A stretch of 46,263 bases of DNA from Opitutia bacterium (lineage in GTDB: Bacteria > Verrucomicrobiota > Verrucomicrobiia > Opitutales > UBA2995): contig JAABVD010000004.1 of the NCBI GenBank assembly GCA_014529615.1, positions 1 through 46,263 on the forward strand, given 5' to 3'. The notes under the pieces were generated by a model that saw only the letters and a program-made list of their open reading frames with translations, was not told the DNA's origin and did not search any database. Position 1 is the first letter of the stretch, and every line of letters starts with the position of its first letter. This document shows positions 40,271 to 46,263 of this stretch, piece after piece. A program made the translations under genes and the position numbers.

Positions 40271-40705
40271 CTAACCAAATGGATCGCGCGTTCGCAGTTC
40301 CGGAAATAAGGAGAAGTCGCGATCCCGCGTGAAAAGGGATTCAATGCCGTGCGCCAGACAAATCGCCGCGATCCGAGCATCATGTACAATGGCTCCGCGC
40401 ACTCTCGGACGTCTCACCAGACCGCTTAATACCTTTAAAAAGTCGTCCGTTTCACCCAGAAGGCGATTGCTCGGCGACGCAGTCCAGGCTTCGAGTTGCC
40501 GCCAGGCGCGTTCCGGCGGTGTTGCAGTGTCTTTCCAGATCCGGTAGTTCGTTACGACACTGAGGAATTCGTAGCAGCAGGGCCAGGGAATGGCCCACAA
40601 TTGCCTCCCTTCGGCAAGCTCCCGCACCATGGAAAAAGATACTTCATGCAGGCGGGACTCCTTGCGATGGGCGTACACGAGCAGGTTTGTATCCACCGCA
40701 ATCAC
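40271..40705 (-). CDS. PIN-domain toxin, VapC-like
   Basis: MIAVDTNLLVYAHRKES...IVHDARIAAICLAHGIESLFTRDRDFSLFP. Confidence 0.9.
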   Translation of the reverse strand: MIAVDTNLLVYAHRKESRLHEVSFSMVRELAEGRQLWAIPWPCCYEFLSVVTNYRIWKDTATPPERAWRQLEAWTASPSNRLLGETDDFLKVLSGLVRRPRVRGAIVHDARIAAICLAHGIESLFTRDRDFSLFPELRTRDPFG

Positions 40706-40950
40706 CGCATTTCAGCCTCTCCGTAGATCAACCCGCGCAGGTCCTGCCACGAGTGGGCTTCGAGAGGGTCTTCCGCCCCGGCATGGCCGGCGCTCAAATC
40801 GGGTAACCGGTAAGAATTGGGGCCGGCAGGTGCGGCGAGGACCTCCCGCAGACCGTCCTCAACCACCGCACGCAAGGTTCGACCCGTTTTTCTGGCATGA
40901 CGCTTCGCTCGCCCCAGGAGGTCGTCCTGGATATCGATAGTGGTTTTCAT
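40702..40950 (-). CDS. VapB-like antitoxin
   Basis: MKTTIDIQDDLLGRAKRHARKTGRTLRAVVEDGLREVL ribbon-helix-helix style; overlaps toxin start by 4 nt. Confidence 0.88.
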   Translation of the reverse strand: MKTTIDIQDDLLGRAKRHARKTGRTLRAVVEDGLREVLAAPAGPNSYRLPDLSAGHAGAEDPLEAHSWQDLRGLIYGEAEMR

Positions 40951-41049: not shown

Positions 41050-41928
41050 TTACCAGAGAGTTTCCGGATAGGTTCCGCGGGCGATCAGGTCACCCAGCTT
41101 GGCTGCCGCTTGGGATGTGTCCTCAGGGTAGGTCAGCCCCAACCACGATTCCCCTGACTGTATCAACTCTACCGTGGCGCCCCGCTCCCCGATCCATTGG
41201 AATACCGCAGTGGGCAGGTAAAATTCCTCCTTCTGCGGGTCGGTTAGGGCGCCGAGGAATTGTTCGAACTTTTCCCGCAGGAAAGGCAAAAAATCCAGGC
41301 CAAATCCCCAGAGATTGAGCGAAACGATGGCATCGGGAGCCAGGTGGCGAGCCTCCCCCTCAAAGGATCCGACAATTCCCTGATCGGTCCGGGAAATGTG
41401 GGTGTGCTCCTCGATTCGGATCAGGAAATTGTCTTTGCAGGTTTCACATACAGCGCGTGAGACGCCGCCATGGGGAGAGAGCGTCTTTTCCAGTTCAAAT
41501 CCGATGTTGACCCCGGATTTCCCTGTCATTCCGGCCAGGCTTTGGGCCAGGAGCTGAAAAGATGAGGGTCCGTAAAAATCATCCGCATTGATCACCCCCA
41601 TGGGCCCATTGATATGATGGGCTGCGCTGAGGAGGGCATGGCCCGTTCCCAAAGGTTTATCCCGGGTCACAGGGGCAGGCTGCATGGATTGAAAGGCGAA
41701 CTCGACTGCGATGCGGTCTTCAAACCTCCGGGTAATGCGTTGGCGAAAGCCCGGTTCCATTTCTTTGCGGATAACTAGGACCACCTTTCCGAATCCCGCC
41801 CGGATGGCGTCGTAAACCGAATAGTCGAGCAACACTTCCCCGGAGGGTCCCAGACCTTCCATTTGTTTGACCCCGCCATAGCGGCTGCCCATTCCTGCGG
41901 CTAAAACAACCAGGGTTAAATCGCTCAT
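41050..41928 (-). CDS. NDP-sugar/nucleotidyltransferase-family protein
   Basis: MSDLTLVVLAAGMGSRYGGVKQMEGLGPSGEVLLDYSVYDAIRAGFGKVVLVIRKE; start chosen at 41928. Confidence 0.85.
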   Translation of the reverse strand: MSDLTLVVLAAGMGSRYGGVKQMEGLGPSGEVLLDYSVYDAIRAGFGKVVLVIRKEMEPGFRQRITRRFEDRIAVEFAFQSMQPAPVTRDKPLGTGHALLSAAHHINGPMGVINADDFYGPSSFQLLAQSLAGMTGKSGVNIGFELEKTLSPHGGVSRAVCETCKDNFLIRIEEHTHISRTDQGIVGSFEGEARHLAPDAIVSLNLWGFGLDFLPFLREKFEQFLGALTDPQKEEFYLPTAVFQWIGERGATVELIQSGESWLGLTYPEDTSQAAAKLGDLIARGTYPETLW

Positions 41929-42009
41929 AAAAGAGATAATCGGACCCAGCATTTGGAACCCCTTCCCTTTCGTCCAGTCCGGAATCGATGAGGAATTTGG
42001 AATGTTAAA

Positions 42010-42044
42010 CCACAAAAAGCACAGAAGACTCAAAATTCCCAATT
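42010..42044 (+). repeat. Dispersed A-rich intergenic repeat, copy 2
   Basis: CCACAAAAAGCACAGAAGACTCAAAATTCCCAATTC-like block, matches 38270-38305. Confidence 0.7.
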
Positions 42045-42215
42045 CTCCCTCCCCCTCTCTATGCCTTCGTGCCTTTTCTTTCCCAATTCCCAATTCTTCC
42101 TCCGTCGGCACTTCAGAATCTCATGAACTCTATTCTTGGTAATCCTCAGCAGGGGTTTATAGGATTGCCACTTGTCCGGGCAATTTACTCAAAATAACCC
42201 CCTAGCTATATTTTC

Positions 42216-43379
42216 ATGGCGACCTCATCCCATTTTAAAACTCGGATTTTCAGCCTCTTATTAGCCTTGTATTTGCTTTCCAGCATGCCGAAGCCGGTAG
42301 GGGGAGAGGATTCCATCCGCTACAAGTACGAAGATTACCAAGAGGACGACGACCGGATTCGGGTGAGAGCCCATTACATCAGCGCCGATAAGGATCTCAG
42401 CCCGAGCACTCGTTTGGGCGTGGTGGGGCTGATCGATACCATAACCGGGACTACACCCACGGGGGAACTGCCGGAGGCCGGGGCCGATCGCGTTCCCATG
42501 GGGGATTTGGTCGATGAGCGCCGCTCCATTATTCTGAATCTCGATCACCAGTTGAAGGACCACGCTTTCACCTTCGAGTTGAATTATAGCAATGAAAGCG
42601 ATTATTTGTCGGAGGGTGGGGCCCTTACCTATCGACGCTACCTCAACAAAAAAAACACCACCATCGAGTTGGGCTACTCCTCGCTCCAAGATGAACTCAG
42701 CGCCCCGACTCTTCCTGAGAAGGAACGCAAGGACAGCGAGGATGTTCTCATTGGGATTACCCAGATACTGGATCCCGCCACCGTTTGGTCGGCCGATTTG
42801 ACCTACGGCCGGGAGGATGGCTACCTGGCCGATCCCTACAAGGTAGTGGAAAAAGACATCGAACTCATTTCCGATTTCTTTCTCGCCATCACCTTTCCGG
42901 AAAACCGGCCCCGCTCACGCCAAAAATGGATTTTTTACACCGATATTTTACGGGATTTTGAGAAACTGAAAGGCAGCTTGCAAACCTCCTACCGTTATTT
43001 TTCCGATGACGCCGATCTGGACGCCCACACCTTTTCCCTGCAGTGGTTTCAAAAAATCTCCGACCAGATCATCCTCGAACCCTTAATGCGCTACTATAAG
43101 CAGTCGGCCGCCAACTATTACCACCACGACCTCAACCTCACCGGTATCCTTCCCGATCGCAATACGATCGGCCACGCGCCCTATTTCTCTTCCGATCACC
43201 GCCTTTCCAAAATGGAAACCTACACTTGGGGAGCGAAGCTGGTTTATTTTTTTTCGCAAGATCTGGAATTCAATTTCAAGATCCAACGCTACGAGATGAC
43301 GGGACTGGATCCCCTGACCCATCCCAGTGTTTACAGTGACGCCGATATCCTTACGGTGGGGGGACGTTGGTTCTTCTAA
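42216..43379 (+). CDS. DUF3570-family predicted outer-membrane beta-barrel protein with DTITGTT motif
   Basis: Signal peptide; EDSIRYKYEDYQEDDDRIRVRAHYISADKDLSPSTRLGVVGLIDTITGTTPTGELPEAG; alternating beta-strand-like sequence; ends WFF. Confidence 0.8.
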   Translation: MATSSHFKTRIFSLLLALYLLSSMPKPVGGEDSIRYKYEDYQEDDDRIRVRAHYISADKDLSPSTRLGVVGLIDTITGTTPTGELPEAGADRVPMGDLVDERRSIILNLDHQLKDHAFTFELNYSNESDYLSEGGALTYRRYLNKKNTTIELGYSSLQDELSAPTLPEKERKDSEDVLIGITQILDPATVWSADLTYGREDGYLADPYKVVEKDIELISDFFLAITFPENRPRSRQKWIFYTDILRDFEKLKGSLQTSYRYFSDDADLDAHTFSLQWFQKISDQIILEPLMRYYKQSAANYYHHDLNLTGILPDRNTIGHAPYFSSDHRLSKMETYTWGAKLVYFFSQDLEFNFKIQRYEMTGLDPLTHPSVYSDADILTVGGRWFF

Positions 43380-44359
43380 TGTCCGATTTTCTCCAGTTGA
43401 ACGTATCGAGAGTGGCGACCAGTGATTTGGCCCGGGGGCTGTTCCGGGTGGAATTCAGGGCCATGGGCACAACCTGCGAAATCCAGTTTCAATGCAACGA
43501 TGAGGGGGTAGCGGGTAACTTCAAGGAAGCGGCCCTGGATTGGGTGCGCAATTTTGAAGCCACCTATACGCGATTCGAGGATTCCAGCCTGGTCAGCCGT
43601 ATCAACCGTGCCGCCGGAAGGGACTGGGTGGCTATCGACCCCGAGACGGAAGCCCTTTTTGACCTTTGCGACCGGTTTCACTTTATTACCCGAGGCCTCT
43701 TCGATCCCACCAACTTGCCCATAATCGAACTCTGGGACTACAAGGCCAGGCATCCGCGGATTCCCACTGATGAAGAAATTGGGAGAGCCAAGGACCTTGT
43801 CGGATGGGACAAGGTGAAGCGAAAGCCCGGTAGGGTTTACTTGGAAAAAGTCGGAATGGGAATCGATTTGGGGGGTATCGGAAAGGAGTACGCGGTGGAT
43901 AGCGTTGCCCTGTTGGCTCGGGACTTCGGGATTGGCGACGTACTGATAAATTTTGGTGGGGACGTGGCCGCACTGGGGCATCCCCCCGGCTACACCCATT
44001 GGCATATCGGCATGGAGGATCCCGGGAATCCGGGGAAGTGTTGGGGAAGTTTGGCCCTGAATGACCTCTGTGTAGCCAGTTCGGGGGACTACCGTCGATT
44101 CTTCGACCTCAACGGCAAGCGTTACGGGCACATCGTCGACCACCGTAAAGGCTATCCCATCGCCAACAAGGTGCAACATGTCACCGTAGTTGCAGGCACA
44201 TGCACGGAGTCGGGTATCCTTGCTACTGCCGCCTGCCTCTTGGGCGAGGAAGAGGGCATGGAGTTGATAAACCGGTTTTTTGGAGCGGAGGGATGCCTCC
44301 ACACGAAATTCAAACGAATAGATTCGCATGGAATATATCATTATATGGTCTCGGATTAG
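43379..44359 (+). CDS. apbE: FAD:protein FMN transferase (ApbE family)
   Basis: FRAMGTTCEIQF...GIDLGGIGKEYAVDSVALLARDFGIGDVLINFGGDVAALG...HIVDHRKGYPI; TAATG overlap with the upstream gene. Confidence 0.93.
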   Translation: MSDFLQLNVSRVATSDLARGLFRVEFRAMGTTCEIQFQCNDEGVAGNFKEAALDWVRNFEATYTRFEDSSLVSRINRAAGRDWVAIDPETEALFDLCDRFHFITRGLFDPTNLPIIELWDYKARHPRIPTDEEIGRAKDLVGWDKVKRKPGRVYLEKVGMGIDLGGIGKEYAVDSVALLARDFGIGDVLINFGGDVAALGHPPGYTHWHIGMEDPGNPGKCWGSLALNDLCVASSGDYRRFFDLNGKRYGHIVDHRKGYPIANKVQHVTVVAGTCTESGILATAACLLGEEEGMELINRFFGAEGCLHTKFKRIDSHGIYHYMVSD

Positions 44360-44849
44360 ATCCTTGGTCCTGGCCCTGCTGGTCGTGTTTTCAGTCATCG
44401 GTCAGCATGAGGCTGCGGCAAAGGTGGTAGAGGGAGACATGTTTCCCGATTTGAGCAATTTCGAGTTCGATGGAGAAGTGCCCGAAATTGAGGGAAAAGT
44501 CGTATTGGTCGATTTTTGGGCCTCGTGGTGCGCCCCCTGTAAAGCTTCCTTTCCCGCCATGGAACGGTTCTACCAGGAGTTCAAGGACCGGGGTTTCGAA
44601 ATTATTGCCGTCAGCGTGGACGACAGCGCCTCGGCTTATGCCCGGTTTGCAAAAAGTTCGGGAGCCACTTTTCCCATATTGCGCGATTTGGGAAAAAAAC
44701 TGGTGGCCACCTGTGCCATAGAAGCCATGCCCACCTCTTTTATGCTGGATAAATCGGGCCGAGTGCACGCCGTGCACCAGGGTTATTCGGGAAAAAAGAC
44801 GGACGAACAATATAGAAAGGAAATCCTGGCCCTGTTGGCCGAGGATTGA
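44328..44849 (+). CDS. TlpA/ResA-like thioredoxin-fold protein
   Basis: N-terminal signal/TM; VLVDFWASWCAPCKASFPAMERFYQEF; 32-nt overlap with apbE. Confidence 0.92.
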   Translation: MEYIIIWSRIRSLVLALLVVFSVIGQHEAAAKVVEGDMFPDLSNFEFDGEVPEIEGKVVLVDFWASWCAPCKASFPAMERFYQEFKDRGFEIIAVSVDDSASAYARFAKSSGATFPILRDLGKKLVATCAIEAMPTSFMLDKSGRVHAVHQGYSGKKTDEQYRKEILALLAED

Positions 44850-45070
44850 TGGTGAGGGCAACCCTTCGAATAGGGTGCATTATTGCCTCCGGAATATTTT
44901 TGTGGGGGTGTGGCACGGTGCAACCGTGGGAACGCGGGGCATTGACTCAATACGGTATGACGGCAGACCGGGATCCCCTTGATACCGCCATGGCCGAGCA
45001 CGTATTTTATACGCGGGAGGCAGCACATGGGGGCGGCAGCATTGGAGGTGGCGGTTGCGGATGCAATTGA
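44849..45070 (+). CDS. DUF4266-family lipoprotein with C-terminal GGGGCGCN
   Basis: Lipobox LWGC; VQPWERGALTQYGMTADRDPLDTAMAEHVFYTREAAHGGGSIGGGGCGCN; TGATG overlap with tlpA-like gene. Confidence 0.85.
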   Translation: MVRATLRIGCIIASGIFLWGCGTVQPWERGALTQYGMTADRDPLDTAMAEHVFYTREAAHGGGSIGGGGCGCN

Positions 45071-45160: not shown

Positions 45161-45255
45161 TAGCCCGCATATCTCACAAAATTCGTAGTGAACGAAGGTC
45201 GAACGTTGGTGCGGGTTTCTGAGCGCAGTAAAAGATTTGCGAGAAATGCGGGCTA
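45161..45255. mobile_element. MITE-like 95-bp element with about 20-bp terminal inverted repeats
   Basis: TAGCCCGCATATCTCACAAA ... TTTGCGAGAAATGCGGGCTA; arms match at 18/20 positions. Confidence 0.55.
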
Positions 45256-46176
45256 AGTCAAACCCCAGTATCGACGTGCCTCCCGGACATCGAGGGCGAT
45301 CTGTTTTCTCAAGGATTCGACACCCTCAAACGTTTTTTCCGTTCGGAGAAAGTGATGCCAGCGGACCTTGAGCCGGGACCCGTGGGTAAAGGGGCATTGG
45401 CGAAGGGCGTGGACTTCCAGAATGGGTTCCGTCGTCTTTTCCACCGTGGGTCTGAGACCAAAATTGGCCACCCCCGGAAGGGTGATGGTCGCTCCTTCGC
45501 ACTCACCTTCCACCTCCACGCAATATACCCCGTAAGGTGGTTTCAAATCTGAGTTCCAGGGCAGGTTCAGGGTGGGGAAGCCCATTTCCCGGCCCAATTT
45601 GTTCCCTTGGATGGCTGGCCCCAAGGAAAAGTATACATCTCCCAGGAGAGCATTGGCCATTTTCATTTCACCGGCTTTGAGGTGATTGCGTATTCGGGTG
45701 CTGCTGATGGGTTGGCCGTCGTAATTCACGCGTTCAACACTTATGACATGGATTCCGGCCTTTCGGCACGATTGCAAAAGCAATTGCACGTCCCCGGCTC
45801 GCCCCTTTCCAAACCTCCAATTCGATCCCACGTGAATGGAGTTCAAATTGGGTAAAAAAGACTTCAGGTGCCCCACAAAATCGGTCGCTTCTATTGCGGC
45901 GAAGGCCAGGTCGAATTTTTGTTGAATTACGTATTGAACCTTGTGGGAACGCAGAACCTCCACCTTGATTTCAGGGGACATGATCATATGTTCGGGATTG
46001 TCCGGCCGAAACAAGCGACTGGGATGGGGCCAGAAAGTCAGGACTGCGTTAATCCCTTGGGTTGCCTGCGCCAATTGAGTGGCTGTCTCGATCACGGCCT
46101 GGTGCCCCAGGTGCACCCCATCGAACATACCCACCGCGAGATGCAGTGGTTTTGCGGGAAGATCGACTTCATCCAT
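45253..46176 (-). CDS. ribF: Bifunctional riboflavin kinase/FAD synthetase
   Basis: HLAVGMFDGVHLGHQAVIETA, LTFWPHPS, ISSTRIRNHLKAGEMKMANALLGDVYFSLG, GREMGFPTLNL, PPYGVYCVEVE; start set at 46176. Confidence 0.95.
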   Translation of the reverse strand: MDEVDLPAKPLHLAVGMFDGVHLGHQAVIETATQLAQATQGINAVLTFWPHPSRLFRPDNPEHMIMSPEIKVEVLRSHKVQYVIQQKFDLAFAAIEATDFVGHLKSFLPNLNSIHVGSNWRFGKGRAGDVQLLLQSCRKAGIHVISVERVNYDGQPISSTRIRNHLKAGEMKMANALLGDVYFSLGPAIQGNKLGREMGFPTLNLPWNSDLKPPYGVYCVEVEGECEGATITLPGVANFGLRPTVEKTTEPILEVHALRQCPFTHGSRLKVRWHHFLRTEKTFEGVESLRKQIALDVREARRYWGLT

Positions 46177-46263
46177 CCGCAATGGAAGACTGGGGGGGAA
46201 AGGGCTCACAAATGAGTATAAGCGATTGGTAAGAGCAAGGGCCAGGGGACCGGGAATCAACAG

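Follow-up and report, generated by a model that had tools for sequence, protein, structure and literature searches.

A Verrucomicrobiota DUF3570-ApbE-TlpA-DUF4266 cassette with a leaderless flavin transferase of altered active site

The cassette and its published relatives

Where in the cell would a flavin be attached to an outer-membrane protein, if the flavin transferase encoded next to it has no signal peptide? The question is raised by a four-gene cassette in a stretch of 46,263 nucleotides from Opitutia bacterium (Verrucomicrobiota; contig JAABVD010000004.1), called here the window. The original prediction described four coupled genes forming an extracytoplasmic redox system, and these reading frames were all found on the plus strand:

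42216..43379, plus strand: DUF3570 protein, 387 aa (PF12094, 218 bits)
43379..44359, plus strand: flavin transferase ApbE, 326 aa (PF02424, 246 bits)
44328..44849, plus strand: TlpA/ResA-like periplasmic thioredoxin, 173 aa (Redoxin, AhpC-TSA, Thioredoxin_8)
44849..45070 from ATG, plus strand: DUF4266 lipoprotein, 73 aa (PF14086, 71 bits)

The Pfam scores of all four proteins are well over the cut-offs. The predicted junctions were recovered as well: TAATG at 43376-43380 joins the DUF3570 and apbE genes, which share one base; apbE and tlpA overlap by 32 nt (44328-44359); and TGATG at 44847-44851 joins tlpA and the DUF4266 gene. Scans of the cassette for promoters and terminators gave no excess over shuffles. 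The cassette is flanked by a divergent nucleotidyltransferase-like gene (41050-42111, minus strand) and by the convergent gene ribF encoding FAD synthetase (45253-46260, minus strand). RibF was considered as a part of the system and rejected, as its gene is convergent and the same arrangement was seen only inside the window's own GTDB family; it is therefore treated as local synteny.

In the literature searched, only Méheust et al. 2021 (PMC8238504) names DUF3570 or DUF4266. That study describes 285 flavinylation clusters with DsbD, typically together with ApbE, DUF3570, a thioredoxin-like protein and DUF4266, and further 316 such clusters without DsbD. As in the window, the genes of DUF3570 (PF12094), ApbE (PF02424) and DUF4266 (PF14086) are adjacent. 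The window cassette has no linked DsbD, and its thioredoxin-fold protein is of the TlpA/ResA type and does not match PF13899, the thioredoxin family of the published clusters. The cassette is real, conserved and of an already described kind. The earlier statement that no function is established for it no longer holds, since both the linkage and the flavinylation of DUF3570 were published in 2021 (PMC8238504).

The anticipated linkage of DUF3570 and DUF4266 to ApbE and thioredoxin was confirmed by a neighbourhood survey. DUF4266 is encoded in 42 of 388 genomes of Verrucomicrobiota and in 21 of 299 genomes of Pseudomonadota (20 above the cut-off). Type A, the type of the window and the common one in Verrucomicrobiota, has the gene order DUF3570-ApbE-TlpA-DUF4266. 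All four genes are present at 103 of the 128 type-A DUF4266 loci of Verrucomicrobiota, several of the others being broken by contig ends; this linkage is not due to chance. In the rarer type B (L097-L101) DUF4266 comes first, and the DUF3570 proteins have two motifs, VSSAS and QSGAS or QTGAS.

The active site of ApbE

By fold and sequence the window ApbE belongs to its family: the AF2 model (pLDDT 94) matches FmnB/Ftp with Foldseek TM 0.87, and the fold is common with the FmnB, Ftp and ApbE proteins of Listeria, Treponema and Vibrio (TM 0.76-0.87). By active site, as judged from the alignment, it is a variant. The positions concerned are:

43886..43888, plus strand: codon GAG of Glu170, a position held by Gly in canonical ApbE (residue cross-tabulation)
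44129..44131, plus strand: codon of the conserved His251, equivalent to His273 of FmnB and His257 of V. cholerae ApbE
44213..44215, plus strand: codon GGT of Gly279, a position held by Asp in canonical ApbE (Asp301 of FmnB, Asp285 of V. cholerae)

Of the conserved triad Ser/His/Asp (241/257/285 in V. cholerae), the window ApbE retains Ser235 and His251, together with Thr283, whereas the metal-binding catalytic Asp is replaced by Gly279. Compared to FmnB, it also has Glu170 for Gly191 and Asp195 for Asn216. The Glu170 position lies four residues past FmnB Ala187, which also coordinates Mg.

The exchange is not peculiar to the window. In a joint alignment, E170/G279 was found in all 130 cluster-linked ApbEs of Verrucomicrobiota and Pseudomonadota (110 of type A, three away from the cluster or at a contig end, and 17 from Pseudomonadota), and G170/D279 in all 45 canonical or type-B ApbEs; there were no mixed cases. 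An ApbE of Verrucomicrobiota fetched as a presumed canonical control (L237) turned out to have E170/G279 too. Ser235 and His251 are invariant across all aligned ApbEs, and Thr283 is nearly so. In a tree built with both trait columns (170 and 279) removed, the E/G ApbEs group in a single clade (SH-aLRT 95), and one change of state is needed. Thus the pair was exchanged once, and its covariation gives no independent support for compensation. What suggests a constraint on the pair is its retention at low identity in two phyla, not repeated covariation.

These enzymes follow the cassette. In the 388 Verrucomicrobiota genomes, the profile of type-A ApbE finds 38 genes at 366-512 bits, the remainder scoring at most 248 (about 40 of these lower-scoring genes were inspected one by one). 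All 38 are from DUF4266-positive genomes; 35 adjoin the DUF4266 gene, and the other three are on other contigs (genomes G324, G413, G391). All nine genomes with an apbE-less DUF3570 cluster have an E/G ApbE elsewhere, in four cases beside a second DUF3570 gene. The link is looser in Pseudomonadota, where an E/G ApbE occurs without DUF4266 in five genomes.

Asp301 of FmnB binds both Mg ions, and Ala in its place strongly lowered or abolished activity (PMC8906456); a review counts this Asp among three conserved ApbE residues (PMC12052999). Thus loss of function in the G279 enzymes is possible. One alternative is that the E/G ApbE no longer transfers flavin and acts in FAD binding, in FAD processing or as a chaperone, DUF3570 being unflavinylated and its motif serving as a structural turn where the barrel opens. 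The missing Asp speaks for this, as do the conservation of the DUF3570 motif even in clusters without apbE and the form of the motif in the window, TGTT. However, Ser235 and His251 are invariant, Thr283 nearly so, and the new invariant carboxylate adjoins the metal site. Each ApbE-less cluster examined has an E/G ApbE in trans, and sister E/G ApbEs without DUF4266 adjoin EF-hand proteins with [ST]GAS motifs. We consider this alternative unlikely.

Cellular location of ApbE

The window ApbE starts MSDFLQLNVSRVATSDLARGLF and has no hydrophobic stretch, no signal peptide and no lipobox; the reading of the cassette as wholly extracytoplasmic is incorrect for this reason. The hydropathy of the best 11-residue window upstream of the ApbE core (a measure distinct from SignalP) has a median of 2.79 in canonical ApbEs, against 0.95 in type A and 0.29 in the Pseudomonadota class. 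It exceeds 1.9 in six of the 110 type-A ApbEs, compared to 41 of 42 in the canonical set (one being L237, itself E/G). The type-B ApbEs combine an N-terminal hydrophobic stretch, clear in three of four, with the canonical active site.

The Chlorobium ApbE studied experimentally had a signal peptide, which was taken off for expression (PMC8238504), whereas the window ApbE is leaderless and carries E170/G279. The cytosolic ApbE of Klebsiella pneumoniae is, like the window enzyme, without a signal peptide, but its substrate is a cytosolic fumarate reductase (PMC12052999), while the substrate proposed here is an exported barrel. The first step of the published survey removed FMN-binding and apbE genes that encode neither a signal peptide nor a lipidation site (PMC8238504), and thus the E/G class may be under-counted. 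No description of a subtype with a leaderless E170/G279 ApbE and a single-motif DUF3570 was found in the literature searched. Hence, while the cassette itself has been described, the subtype with a leaderless ApbE of altered metal site looks new.

It is rather improbable that flavinylation nonetheless occurs in the periplasm, either by this ApbE exported via an unrecognised or piggyback route, or by a second, secreted ApbE. Most characterised systems are indeed flavinylated outside the cytosol, and the same genome (a draft, 91% complete, with three ApbEs) encodes a canonical ApbE whose lipoprotein signal is clear, ...LLLGFTLLFLVVACG (L056). However, the leader is missing in nearly all members from two phyla, and DUF3570 and DUF4266 are tracked by the E/G ApbE and not by the canonical enzyme.

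The DUF3570 barrel and its motif

The DUF3570 protein has a signal peptide and no cysteines, and is predicted to form an outer-membrane beta-barrel, in which 16 membrane strands were counted. The model is confident (AF2 pLDDT 95.6, pTM 0.87). Foldseek matches it to the BcsC, PelB, FadL and OmpT barrels, with the top TM among the matches listed for BcsC (0.55) and PelB (0.52). The candidate site of modification is:

42435..42455, plus strand: candidate flavinylation motif D74-T-I-T-G-T-T80, followed by P81, with candidate acceptor Thr80

In Chlorobium luteolum, DUF3570 has two [S/T]GA[S/T] motifs that are flavinylated by the cognate ApbE (PMC8238504). Thus the original suggestion of DUF3570 as an ApbE substrate was right, although the published case is of a different subtype. 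The window protein lacks two such motifs and has one, TGTT instead of the textbook form; its type-A relatives likewise have one conserved motif. All 118 type-A proteins have Gly78, Ser/Thr80 and Pro81, and position 79 is Ala in 105 of them, Ser or Thr in the window's family and Thr in the window. Substitution of Val for the Ala of the motif only about halved flavinylation (PMC12052999), and so a TGTT motif may remain functional. Loss of the motif from clusters without apbE was considered and rejected, as they keep it and an E/G ApbE is present in trans. No FMN_bind or DUF2271 protein was found in the draft genome, and so DUF3570 is the sole representative found there of these known types of ApbE substrate.

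The motif closes strand 65-81, ahead of the loop 82-94. Given that both termini are periplasmic, this end of the strand would be extracellular. Barrel topology here is derived from strand counting, not from coordinates, just as the geometry of the ApbE metal site is derived from the alignment.

TlpA, DUF4266 and electron supply

TlpA matches the Redoxin and AhpC-TSA families (76 and 73 bits) and has the motif WCAPC with Cys68 and Cys71 (44529-44540); the score with a ResA-like model, 115 bits, is under the cut-off. TlpA is absent from clusters L052-L055, L095, L125, L147 and L174, and thus it is not essential. No DsbD is encoded in the cluster, and one full DsbD (DsbD_N, transmembrane and thioredoxin domains) is encoded on another contig of the genome.

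The DUF4266 protein has a lipobox, LWGC, with Cys21, and ends GGGGCGCN. Its C-terminal CGC (Cys70, Cys72) is invariant in two DUF4266 alignments, and this CxC end was already remarked on (PMC8238504). The proposal that DUF4266 is flavinylated was rejected, as it has no [S/T]GA[S/T] motif; more likely, the CGC is a redox or metal site. As DUF3570 has no cysteines, a disulfide between it and the CxC is impossible, and exchange with TlpA or metal binding is the more likely role. One DUF4266-positive locus (L094 of genome G412) belongs to neither type: its DUF4266 ends GGGGCN and has lost the CxC, and neither a DUF3570 gene on its contig nor a high-scoring E/G ApbE was found.

Metal binding would fit a cassette that handles iron or copper and is not a general electron path: the CxC would bind the metal, with TlpA keeping it reduced, and the flavin barrel would serve in uptake or release, either as a reductase or as a channel. 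The CxC itself and the iron transporter VIT1 in 25 published DUF3570-type clusters (PMC8238504) are consistent with this, but no metal transporter was identified among the reading frames beside the window cassette, and we give such a role little credence.

Proposed mechanism

The explanation that we prefer, at about even odds, is that the cytosolic E170/G279 ApbE flavinylates the DUF3570 barrel before its export, with TlpA and DUF4266 forming an electron path to the flavin. The leaderless ApbE would move FMN from cytosolic FAD to Thr80 of DUF3570 while this preprotein is being made by coupled translation or shortly afterwards, and ahead of Sec export. In the active site of this ApbE, Glu170 would supply the carboxylate in place of the usual Asp, whose position is taken by Gly279; Asp195 may assist. 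Once inserted in the outer membrane, the barrel would carry FMN at the mouth facing outwards. The unlinked DsbD of this genome would keep TlpA reduced; TlpA would reduce the C-terminal CxC of the DUF4266 lipoprotein, and the latter would pass electrons to FMN and then to an outside acceptor, the opposite direction being also possible. In a bolder form, which we put forward tentatively, the cytosolic ApbE, its metal carboxylate now on a Glu of another helix, flavinylates the barrel, on which FMN crosses two membranes to the cell surface, and the system is a haem-free flavin/thiol conduit of the outer membrane.

Modification of an unfolded substrate is plausible, as a seven-residue flavinylation motif is sufficient (PMC12052999). 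Several observations count against this mechanism: the usual Ala of the motif is Thr in the window, the literature searched documents no Sec export of a chain bearing FMN, cytosolically expressed ApbE did not rescue the growth of a knock-out in an early study (PMC12052999), and some clusters lack TlpA.

Among the exported proteins known to be flavinylated, most receive the flavin outside the cytosol from secreted ApbEs that have the conserved Asp. If the proposed mechanism is true, a protein can acquire its covalent flavin ahead of export, and the metal site of ApbE can be rebuilt. The class of leaderless, Asp-less ApbEs is widespread and tied to one family of outer-membrane barrels, and it hints at new substrates, such as the EF-hand proteins adjoining the sister enzymes.

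Sister enzymes and other genes of the window

In three genomes of Pseudomonadota (G454, G525, G616), E/G apbE genes without DUF3570 or DUF4266 adjoin genes of small EF-hand proteins (L331:5993-6415, L333:4071-4538, L335:4570-4962). In their N-terminal part these proteins have the motif [ST]GAS, as in PQVMTGASARMPP. Strong matches to the EF-hand family occur in only four of the 299 Pseudomonadota genomes, these three and G514, and all four are among the five genomes with an E/G ApbE and no DUF4266. A quick look at the G514 copies did not reveal the [ST]GAS motif. The EF-hand proteins are candidate new cytosolic flavinylation substrates; nothing relevant to a link between EF-hand proteins and ApbE was found in the literature searched.

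In genome G570, an E/G ApbE without DUF4266 adjoins a protein of barrel-like sequence (L291:1465-2682) that has one CxxCH, seems to have a signal peptide and matches no Pfam family. The ApbE L237/L350 (G324:C51:58603) is a second E/G ApbE in a Verrucomicrobiota genome. It has a hydrophobic stretch upstream of the core and clusters with the Pseudomonadota enzymes, and its horizontal transfer is possible.

Elsewhere in the window, overlapping genes of a VapB-like antitoxin and a PIN-domain toxin are found at 40271-40950 on the minus strand. The ATPase_2/DUF234 protein encoded at 36759-38159 matches the PADLOC candidate defence family PDC-S27 (118 bits).
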